A DNA stretch of 64,000 bases, from assembly GCF_000420485.1 (NCBI RefSeq), contig NZ_ATVA01000013.1, forward strand, positions 62,001 to 126,000, read 5' to 3'. Positions within the stretch are counted from its first letter, which is position 1, and the number at the start of each line of letters is the position of its first letter. Positions 6,434 to 39,739 of the stretch are shown here, piece by piece. The DNA is from Paucidesulfovibrio longus DSM 6739 (GTDB taxonomy: Bacteria; Desulfobacterota; Desulfovibrionia; Desulfovibrionales; Desulfovibrionaceae). The translations under genes were made by a program, and so were the position numbers. The notes below the pieces were generated by a model. The model was given only the letters and a program-made list of their open reading frames with translations. It was not told the DNA's origin and made no database searches.

Positions 6434-7327
6434 ATGAAGCCCGTTATTCAGACCGACATCAAGGAATACCCTCTGGCCTCTCGCGGAAAAGTCCGCGATA
6501 TTTATGAAATCTCGCCGGATTCTCTGCTGATCGTAACCACGGACCGCATTTCGGCCTTCGATGTGATCATGCCGGATCCGATTCCTCTCAAGGGAAGAAT
6601 CCTCAACCAGATCACCCTGTTCTGGATGGATAAGTTCAAGGATCTGATTCCGAATCACATTCTCGCCTCCGACGTGGCGGACTACCCCGCGCCGCTCCAG
6701 CCCTATGCGGCCGAGCTTGAGGGACGCAGCGTGCTGGTCCGGAAAGCCAAGCCCCTGCCCATCGAGTGCATCGTGCGCGGCTTCATCACCGGCTCCGGCT
6801 GGAAGGACTACCTAGCCACGGGCAAAGTCAGCGGCCATACCCTGCCCGCCGGACTCAAGGAATCCGACATGCTCGCCGAGCCGCTTTTCACGCCGTCCAC
6901 CAAGGCGGAGCTTGGAGAGCATGACGAGAACATCACCGTGGACAAGGCCAAGGACATGCTCGGCAGCGAACTCATGGCCAAGGTCCAGAGCGTCAGTCTG
7001 GAAATCTACAGCCGCGCCAGGGATTATGCCCGCGAACGCGGCATCATCATCGCGGACACCAAGTTCGAGTTCGGCCTGACGGACAGCGGACTCCTGCTCA
7101 TCGATGAAGTGCTGACTCCGGACTCTTCCCGCTTCTGGCCCATGGACGGCTACGAGCCGGGTCATGGACAGCCCAGTTTCGACAAGCAGTTCCTGCGCGA
7201 CTGGCTCACGGAAATCGGCTTCAACAAGCAGCCGCCTGCTCCGCGCATTCCGGAAGACATCGCAAGCCGGACGCAGGAAAAATACCTGGAAGCCTTCGAA
7301 CGCCTCACCGGCTCGAAGCTGGGGTAA
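6434..7327 (+). CDS. purC: SAICAR synthase
   Basis: Phosphoribosylaminoimidazole-succinocarboxamide synthase joins CAIR and aspartate with ATP in purine synthesis. It is 297 residues, matching the longer (yeast ADE1-like) form rather than the short 240-residue one. Visible motifs are RGKVRDIYE near the N-terminus, [10 protein letters not shown], the substrate-site [11 protein letters not shown] (about 115) and DTKFEFGL (about 210). AGAGGT precedes the ATG. The stop codon is 3 bp before the start of the small gene at 7331, consistent with translational coupling. Confidence 0.96.
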
Positions 7328-7330
7328 CGT

Positions 7331-7522
7331 ATGAAGGATTTTTTGATTTTAGTGGGCGTATTCGCCGGAGTCATCCTGCTGAACCGCTTCATCTTACCGA
7401 AGCTCGGAGTACCGACCTGAGCCTCCCCTGCGAGTTGCGGCTGGAAGCCGCCTCAAAAATGCGAAAAGGACGAGGACAAGGATGCGCCGGACGACCCGGA
7501 AAGGCCGTTCGACAAGGCTTGA
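7331..7522 (+). CDS. Candidate small membrane selenoprotein (in-frame TGA, Sec30)
   Basis: ATG at 7331 follows GGGG and starts 3 bp after purC. It opens MKDFLILVGVFAGVILLNRF, a single membrane segment, then ILPKLGVPT. At 7418-7420 a TGA interrupts the frame, but the same frame continues for 33 codons (ASPASCGW, then a Lys/Asp-rich tail with a second Cys) to TGA at 7520. Total is 63 residues if codon 30 is selenocysteine. The tail has mostly G/C third bases and a plausible hydrophilic cytoplasmic or periplasmic composition. A hairpin with bacterial-SECIS spacing lies just after the TGA. The alternative is a 29-residue micropeptide that ends at 7420. Function is unknown; Sec plus nearby Cys would suggest redox or metal-thiolate chemistry. 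Confidence 0.6.
7432..7454 (+). promoter_or_regulatory. Candidate bacterial SECIS hairpin
   Basis: GAG(7432-7434) pairs with CTC(7452-7454), and GCGGC(7437-7441) pairs with GCCGC(7447-7451). A TT bulge sits on the 5' side and the apical loop is TGGAA. The loop begins 22 nt after the TGA and has G at its second position. These values fit the published bSECIS consensus (short loop, G among the first two loop bases, loop about 16-37 nt after UGA) as I recall it. Confidence 0.55.
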
Positions 7523-7606: not shown

Positions 7607-7915
7607 ATGCAGAACTACGAAACCTTGTTGCTGCTCTCCCCGGAACTCGAGGAAGAGCGCCGCAACGAGATCTTCGCCACTTTCACCGAGACCCTGGAAA
7701 GCGGCGAAGGAAAGATCGTCGAGATGGACGAGTGGGGCATGCGCACCCTGGCCTATCCCGTCAAGAAACAGACCCGCGGTTTTTACATGCGGATGGTCTA
7801 CGAAGCTCCGGGCGCCCTGGTGACCGAGCTGGAACGCAAGATCCGCATCTCTGACGGCATCTTCAAGTTCATTACCGTCAAACTGGACAACCAGGCCGCG
7901 AGCCAGGAGGGATAG
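7607..7915 (+). CDS. rpsF: Small ribosomal subunit protein bS6
   Basis: A 102-residue S6 protein that binds 16S rRNA with S18 in the 30S platform. It begins [14 protein letters not shown] and contains the family segment [18 protein letters not shown]. An ATG 21 bp upstream (7586) is in frame, but TAAGGAGG sits directly before 7607, so that start is chosen. It is the first gene of the usual rpsF-rpsR-rplI-dnaB order, 1 bp before rpsR. Confidence 0.96.
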
Positions 7916-27599: not shown

Positions 27600-27687
27600 T
27601 GGCGGAGAGGAGAGGATTTGAACCTCCGGTAGAGTTTCCCCTACACACACTTTCCAGGCGTGCTCCTTAAGCCGGACTCGGACACCT
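27600..27687 (-). repeat. Left attachment repeat: tRNA-Ser missing its 5' end
   Basis: Identical over 88 bp to the 3' part of the tRNA-Ser gene at 39648, including the encoded CCA. The first four bases of the gene (GGAG) are replaced, so the acceptor stem reads TTAAAGG instead of GGAGAGG and cannot pair properly with CCTCTCC. It is the partial duplication left by integration, not a working tRNA gene. Confidence 0.92.
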
Positions 27688-27771
27688 TTAAATCTCAAAT
27701 AGTTATGTATGAGAAATCAGGTTCCGACAGATCAAGTTTTCAGTATGTCACAACAGCGACTCTGTGATGTT

Positions 27772-39647: not shown

Positions 39648-39739
39648 TGGCGGAGAGGAGAGGATTTGAACCTCCGGTAGAGTTTCCCCTACACACACTT
39701 TCCAGGCGTGCTCCTTAAGCCGGACTCGGACACCTCTCC
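39648..39739 (-). tRNA. tRNA-Ser (anticodon GGA)
   Basis: The minus strand gives a 92-nt tRNA including the encoded CCA. Acceptor GGAGAGG pairs with CCTCTCC, the anticodon stem CACGC/GTGTG holds loop CTGGAAA with anticodon GGA (reads UCC/UCU), the long variable arm is typical of serine tRNAs, and the T loop is TTCAAAT. It is the integration target of the element at its left; its 3' 88 bp may come from the element. Confidence 0.96.

Follow-up and report, generated by a model that had tools for sequence, protein, structure and literature searches.

Small single-pass membrane proteins that hold selenocysteine (Sec) in a flexible cytosolic tail are known from eukaryotes, where they are represented by SELENOK and SELENOS, and a membrane helix followed by a Cys-containing tail is the layout of the small FeoB-associated Cys-rich membrane protein (PF12669). 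Another small membrane protein, the YgaP-like transmembrane domain (PF11127), ends in a stretch of the form ILxxLG. The family described here resembles SELENOK and SELENOS in layout only, and has a stretch similar to the ILxxLG one of PF11127. As far as the portion of PMC13188914 covered here shows, it shares with the 119 catalogued families of bacterial selenoproteins an in-frame UGA, a SECIS-like hairpin, the Sec machinery and a Sec placed near a Cys, but differs from them in consisting of a single membrane helix with no predicted thioredoxin-like domain. Glycine reductase selenoprotein A (GrdA), a subunit of an amino-acid reductase according to the same portion of PMC13188914, was once thought to lack any Cys homologue, as stated in the covered part of a 2025 method paper (PMC12013277); the small family is likewise nearly all Sec. 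The same part of the method paper also concludes that every selenoprotein known by now seems to possess a Cys homologue, and notes that its filter may drop proteins for which none exists (PMC12013277).

The gene that led to the family lies in Paucidesulfovibrio longus DSM 6739 (Desulfobacterota; Desulfovibrionales), in a stretch of 64,000 nucleotides (contig NZ_ATVA01000013.1, positions 62,001 to 126,000) that is referred to as the window. Its frame (7331-7522, + strand) opens with ATG, meets a TGA at codon 30 (7418-7420), continues for 33 codons and stops at a TGA at 7520-7522, which confirms the frame described in an earlier note made from the letters of the window. With the first TGA read as Sec, the translation has 63 residues (MKDFLILVGVFAGVILLNRFILPKLGVPTUASPASCGWKPPQKCEKDEDKDAPDDPERPFDKA), and the Cys that the note had placed near the putative Sec (TUASPASCGW) is indeed there, as Cys 36. 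The features of the locus are as follows.

6434-7327: purC, recognised by eye from its translation; its stop lies 3 bp before the start of the small gene
7331-7522, + strand: putative gene of a small selenoprotein, giving 63 residues when TGA 30 is translated as Sec; based on the frame as read and on its relatives
7334-7402, + strand: codons 2-24, predicted single membrane helix (AlphaFold2 helix; membrane span deduced from hydrophobicity)
7418-7420, + strand: TGA inside the frame, read as the putative Sec codon (codon 30); shared by 207 of the 208 distinct family members
7432-7454, + strand: SECIS-like bulged hairpin with loop GGA at 7443-7445; computed fold z = -0.40, support at the level of the family
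7436-7438, + strand: codon of Cys 36, possible resolving partner of Sec with five residues between them; spacing of 4-6 in 184 of 207 members
7520-7522, + strand: frame-ending TGA, from the translation
7586 or 7607 to 7915: rpsF, following the small gene, recognised by eye from its translation

Elsewhere in the window lie the small SRP RNA (RF00169, 22014-22109) and two tRNA-Ser genes with the same anticodon GGA (27604-27690 and 39648-39739, ARAGORN).

Relatives of the window gene are numerous. A tblastn search of 59 genomes, the window's own included, gave matches in 24, of which 21 turned out on reading to hold this gene, each with its TGA at the identical codon; matches L030-L037 of this search were read and set aside as chance. 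When the 21 members were turned into a profile, it found a match in 160 of the order's 348 genomes and in 41 of its 59 genera, the count of genomes taking in weak unread matches such as those of G151, G152, G164, G176, G047 and G051. In a phylum-wide sample, 176 of 395 genomes were matched, belonging to 117 of the 246 genera. Eight matches of one genus ended short of the TGA and so appeared without a stop, although their translations show it; three matches of the phylum sample that likewise appeared without one also have TGA on reading. The gene is carried in Desulfobacterota by Geobacter argillaceus ATCC BAA-1139 (locus L204), Desulfuromusa kysingii DSM 7343 (locus L270), Geotalea sp. SG265 and Geomonas sp. 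Red32, as well as by a genus mate of the window's organism (G002) and a record titled Desulfovibrio sp. STF2_139.

Over a wider range, we scanned one genome per GTDB species in a codon-blind manner, using the pattern [NSQ][RKA][FW][VI]LP[RK]LG[IV], which leaves the Sec codon untouched. The scan matched 128 stretches, 91 of which were confirmed; TGA stands at the site in all of the best 80 of these 91 relatives, which were kept. The record titles of the best 80 name about 12 phyla (Desulfobacterota, Planctomycetota, Verrucomicrobia, Actinomycetota, Calditrichaceae, Zixibacteria, Acidobacteria, KSB1, Myxococcota, Spirochaetes, Armatimonadetes and Chloroflexi), and single labels among them could be wrong since most of the records are metagenome bins. 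Sampling of Acidobacteriota recovered the family in 39 of 159 genomes, with TGA in 40 of 40 matches, whereas 24 of 246 Planctomycetota genomes were matched, once by chance (G857, set aside), 20 times by a Sec form (17 read, three assigned by their listed TGA) and three times by a Cys form. The set of members scoring at least 22 bits comprises 214 members or 208 distinct proteins, of which 207 have Sec at the site and one has Cys. Two adjoining copies are present in G030, G243 and G293, the second one being without the Cys in G030 and G243; the second adjoining copy at loci L096 and L127 has Sec and no Cys (GMRGUMP[RQ]PPDVWETP). Plasmid and phage collections searched with one Geobacter member as query gave no match.

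The members are built alike. With starts assigned automatically, 138 of 208 members have the Sec, or the Cys of the one exchanged protein (G113), as residue 30, Pro occupies position -7 in 189 and Gly position -4 in 191 of 207, and a Cys follows after 4-6 further residues in 184 of 207; seven of the 207 have no Cys after Sec. Several members terminate in GGCGG. In eight members of one genus (L069-L076) the vicinity of Sec is free of Cys and a GGCG stretch at the C-terminus contains one, which looks like a relocated partner Cys. AlphaFold2 models the window protein as a helix over residues 2-24 and nothing else, with pLDDT of about 90 over residues 1-20; no thioredoxin-like fold is seen in this model, which has one helix, no strand and a mean pLDDT of only 68.6, and a comparison with solved structures gave weak matches only (best E = 0.48). 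The product is thus predicted to be one membrane helix, a span deduced from its hydrophobic sequence, with a charged and disordered tail. Net charge averages -0.5 across the five N-terminal residues and +2.7 beyond residue 17, so that this tail, and hence the Sec, should face the cytoplasm by the positive-inside rule. Homology to the YgaP-like domain is not supported (hhalign probability 1.3%), nor is membership in PF12669, which was hit in one of 29 members with a best E of 0.18.

The codons past the TGA are under selection at the protein level. For the 20 codons that precede the TGA, 119 pairs of 83 loci, which are not independent of one another, give a pN/pS of 0.20; the first eight codons past it give 0.35 and the following five 0.37, as compared with 0.94 for the eight codons beyond the true stop; pairs of identity outside 72-97%, with another Sec-Cys spacing or with a short tail were left out. 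The mark by which selenoprotein genes are recognised, a UGA inside the frame followed by conserved coding sequence, is accordingly present in the family. The synonymous share is also lower just after the TGA than before it (0.38 versus 0.55), as an RNA element at this place would cause.

The computed hairpin of the window runs from the 12th base after the TGA as GAG / 2-nt bulge / GCGGCU-GGA-AGCCGC / CUC. The bulge and the 12-nt start agree with the earlier note; its 5-nt loop does not, the loop being the 3-nt GGA, although the hairpin is the same one, since the difference arises from a U-A pair left open. Taken alone, this hairpin is ordinary, with 64 of 200 shuffles folding at least as well. 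The family tells more. At least four stacked pairs, a loop 14-38 nt from the TGA and a G among the first two loop bases are found in 171 of 207 members and wanting in 36, as against their presence in 473 of 2070 protein-preserving variants (23%); a looser rule is satisfied by 189 of 207, compared with 39% of the sequences that follow 800 real TGA stops and 42% of those with shuffled codons. Members are no more stable than the stretches after the 800 real TGA stops, from which they are separated by the position of the loop and the loop G, not by folding energy. In an alignment of 36 members (A4), picked by eye from the 80 genome_contigs loci for similar Sec-Cys spacing, columns 20-25 pair with columns 31-36 in 63.4% of cells versus 45.2% when shuffled, with a covariation score of 0.409 versus 0.176 and none of 500 shuffles reaching either value; the underlying structure is a second drawing, made after the poor fit of the first one, and the best among its own slides, the next-best being -1 (55.6% paired, score 0.324). 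The first hand-drawn structure, with a 3-nt loop, paired in 36% of cells, did better when slid by +1 and +2, and was discarded. RNAalifold returned no pairs for A4. A SECIS-like hairpin just after the UGA is therefore a property of the family, whereas the window sequence alone is not significant in this respect.

The gene keeps company with the Sec machinery. The P. longus genome has tRNA-Sec, selA, selB and selD; its selD (L279, G000:C18:686-1612) holds one in-frame TGA and is for this reason probably a selenoprotein gene itself. Across the 348 genomes of the order, the family and selA occur together in 149, the family alone in 11, selA alone in 129 and neither in 59 (p = 7e-9), and the 11 of 160 family genomes without a selA match are mostly incomplete assemblies. 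When only the 246 high-quality genomes of the order are considered, selA is present in 130 of 133 family genomes (p = 2e-6), the three without it having been picked by hand for the selA table. For 28 of the 80 loci kept from the codon-blind scan, the genome was examined for selA; their titles name about 12 phyla, 21 of them lying outside Desulfobacterota and seven being others, and all 28 genomes have the gene. It was also found in 35 of 39 family genomes of Acidobacteriota versus 108 of 159 overall (p = 7e-4) and in 18 of 20 Sec-form genomes of Planctomycetota versus none of the three Cys-form genomes (p = 0.006; 165 of 246 overall).

Cys orthologues, which the earlier note had named as a means of checking the Sec position, do exist, although they are rare. 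Four were seen: G113, a genome of the order, has Cys (TGC) at the site, with Sec in G114 of the same genus, and G934, G991 and G920 are Planctomycetota. No match to selA was found in these three genomes, in which the Cys forms lie on contigs of 4.8, 7.8 and 8.3 Mb that represent approximately the whole genome; G113 has the Cys form yet retains selA. Two of the four Cys forms still pass the hairpin rule, which, like the selA of G113, complicates any simple account. Given that the Planctomycetota Cys forms come without a selA match and the Sec forms mostly with one, Sec and Cys appear to exchange at this site, as expected of a selenoprotein.

From the window alone the case for a selenoprotein would be weak; the comparison makes it strong, because the same TGA, the downstream residues and the distance to the hairpin recur. 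The homologues with Sec or Cys at the site, the conservation after the TGA and the Sec genes of P. longus, on which the earlier note had staked its candidate new selenoprotein, all speak in its favour, and we regard it as very probable, judging by comparative evidence, that the window gene encodes a putative selenium-containing member of a widespread bacterial family. UGA 30 would be decoded as Sec by SelB and tRNA-Sec, aided by the hairpin just downstream. An ordinary stop closing a 29-residue membrane peptide, with a chance frame beyond it, is compatible with the window and the z score of its hairpin, but is rendered highly improbable by the selection on the protein past the TGA, by the use at the site of TGA and never of TAA or TAG in the members read, and by the conserved Cys after the TGA, the natural Cys forms and the link to selA. 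It is more improbable still that the UGA serves as a selenium-sensing switch for the downstream gene and not as a route to a functional protein: the place of the window gene between purC and rpsF would suit such a switch, but the genes downstream vary by lineage and selection is seen on both sides of the UGA. Equally little credit can be given to near-cognate decoding of the UGA as another amino acid, for which nothing specific speaks and against which stand the selA link across lineages, the hairpin and the fact that Cys is the residue in the exchanged forms.

What the putative selenoprotein does may be sought in its surroundings. No operon is common to all loci, and the genes downstream and the neighbours in general differ between lineages. 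Among 248 distinct loci, with neighbours named by Pfam, an FmdB-type zinc ribbon is encoded within 400 bp on the same strand in 42 and on the opposite strand in none (farther off, three same and one opposite), a YgaP-like domain in 16 and none (farther off, two), thioredoxin in 13 and none (farther off, three and three) and DUF302 in eight and none (farther off, two); these counts are descriptive and carry no probability, since the queries were genes already noticed next to it, and loci from the same lineage are not independent. Within 600 bp, the zinc ribbon accompanies 22 of 125 order and phylum loci, 10 of 78 genome_contigs loci, 12 of 29 Acidobacteriota loci and 0 of 16 Planctomycetota loci. 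The fmdB of PMC4807772, in the part of that paper covered here, is formylmethanofuran dehydrogenase, a different gene. Most of the 248 loci have no linked partner, and the window gene has neither zinc ribbon, YgaP-like, thioredoxin, DUF302 nor sulfur genes beside it. Eight Acidobacteriota loci show the run YgaP-like domain, family gene, thioredoxin, zinc ribbon, and two Planctomycetota genomes with the Cys form (G934 and G991) show the run TauE/SafE, metallo-beta-lactamase/rhodanese, family gene, pyridine-nucleotide-disulphide oxidoreductase.

L334, 4036-7826: Cys-form gene run, Planctomycetota (Pfam names)
L335, 4938-8842: Cys-form gene run, Planctomycetota (Pfam names)

We take the lactamase/rhodanese of these runs to be persulfide-dioxygenase-like and the oxidoreductase to be sulfide:quinone-reductase-like. 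Multihaem cytochrome genes adjoin the family gene in L169, L199, L200 and L204 (one cluster, named by eye), and cytochrome c7 does so in L196.

The presence of the FmdB-type zinc ribbon, YgaP-like domain, thioredoxin and DUF302 on the same strand in part of the loci suggests a role in thiol or sulfane-sulfur redox chemistry. Tentatively, and with somewhat less than even confidence, we propose a membrane-tethered thiol/selenol redox protein or sulfane-sulfur relay at the cytoplasmic face, both chemistry and substrate being read from such associations. The product would present one membrane helix, then the motif P-[KR]-L-G-[IV]-x-[TG]-U, in most cases a Cys 4-6 residues further along, and finally a charged tail. 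A sulfur atom or an oxidising equivalent would be accepted by Sec, the adduct resolved by the neighbouring Cys through an Se-S bond, and the Sec regenerated by thioredoxin or some comparable thiol. A metal or metalloid ligand formed by Sec and Cys, for storage, sensing or detoxification instead of redox, is unlikely: a short flexible tail with both residues could bind such an ion, several members have the GGCGG end, and zinc-ribbon genes are the commonest linked neighbours, but the neighbours named by Pfam include thioredoxin, DUF302 and a rhodanese-type enzyme, not metal transporters, and Sec occurs without Cys in the seven members mentioned above. The size and single helix would also suit an accessory subunit of a membrane (respiratory) complex, as would the cytochromes of the five loci just named; no single complex recurs, however, the neighbours differing by lineage, and we consider this reading improbable.

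The family has so far gone unnamed in the resources consulted. NCBIfam, Pfam and PHROGs assigned the window protein to no family, and NCBIfam release 20 and Pfam, applied to sets of 21 and 29 members, offered no fitting model, only weak matches that look like chance. No motif corresponding to the family is apparent by eye in Table 1 (119 families and subfamilies) of the portion of the 2026 catalogue PMC13188914 covered here, and four motif strings of the family are absent from the open literature searched, a coverage outside which most subscription journals and supplementary files fall. We thus found no description of this family of about 50 residues, which is short of proof that none is in print. 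Because selenoprotein finders lean on Cys homologues, a very short and nearly all-Sec family would tend to be filtered out, and such a filter would explain the oversight.

The gene occurs in 117 of the 246 genera of the phylum-wide sample and under titles of about 12 phyla, yet has no family model, which points to a blind spot of selenoprotein finders. Many sulfate and metal reducers would need additional selenium for this family, and FmdB-type zinc-ribbon, DUF302 and YgaP-like proteins gain a testable partner. The three Planctomycetota genomes that combine the Cys form with no selA match offer a natural experiment on Sec-to-Cys exchange, and the gene run of G934 and G991 provides a lead to sulfide or persulfide oxidation. 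Possibly, though this is rather doubtful, the small protein is a seleno-relay of sulfane-sulfur metabolism, in which Sec would accept an oxidising equivalent, or the sulfur of a persulfide, at the inner membrane before passing it to thioredoxin, rhodanese or YgaP-like partners, a selenium-dependent role that would account for the small number of Cys lineages.
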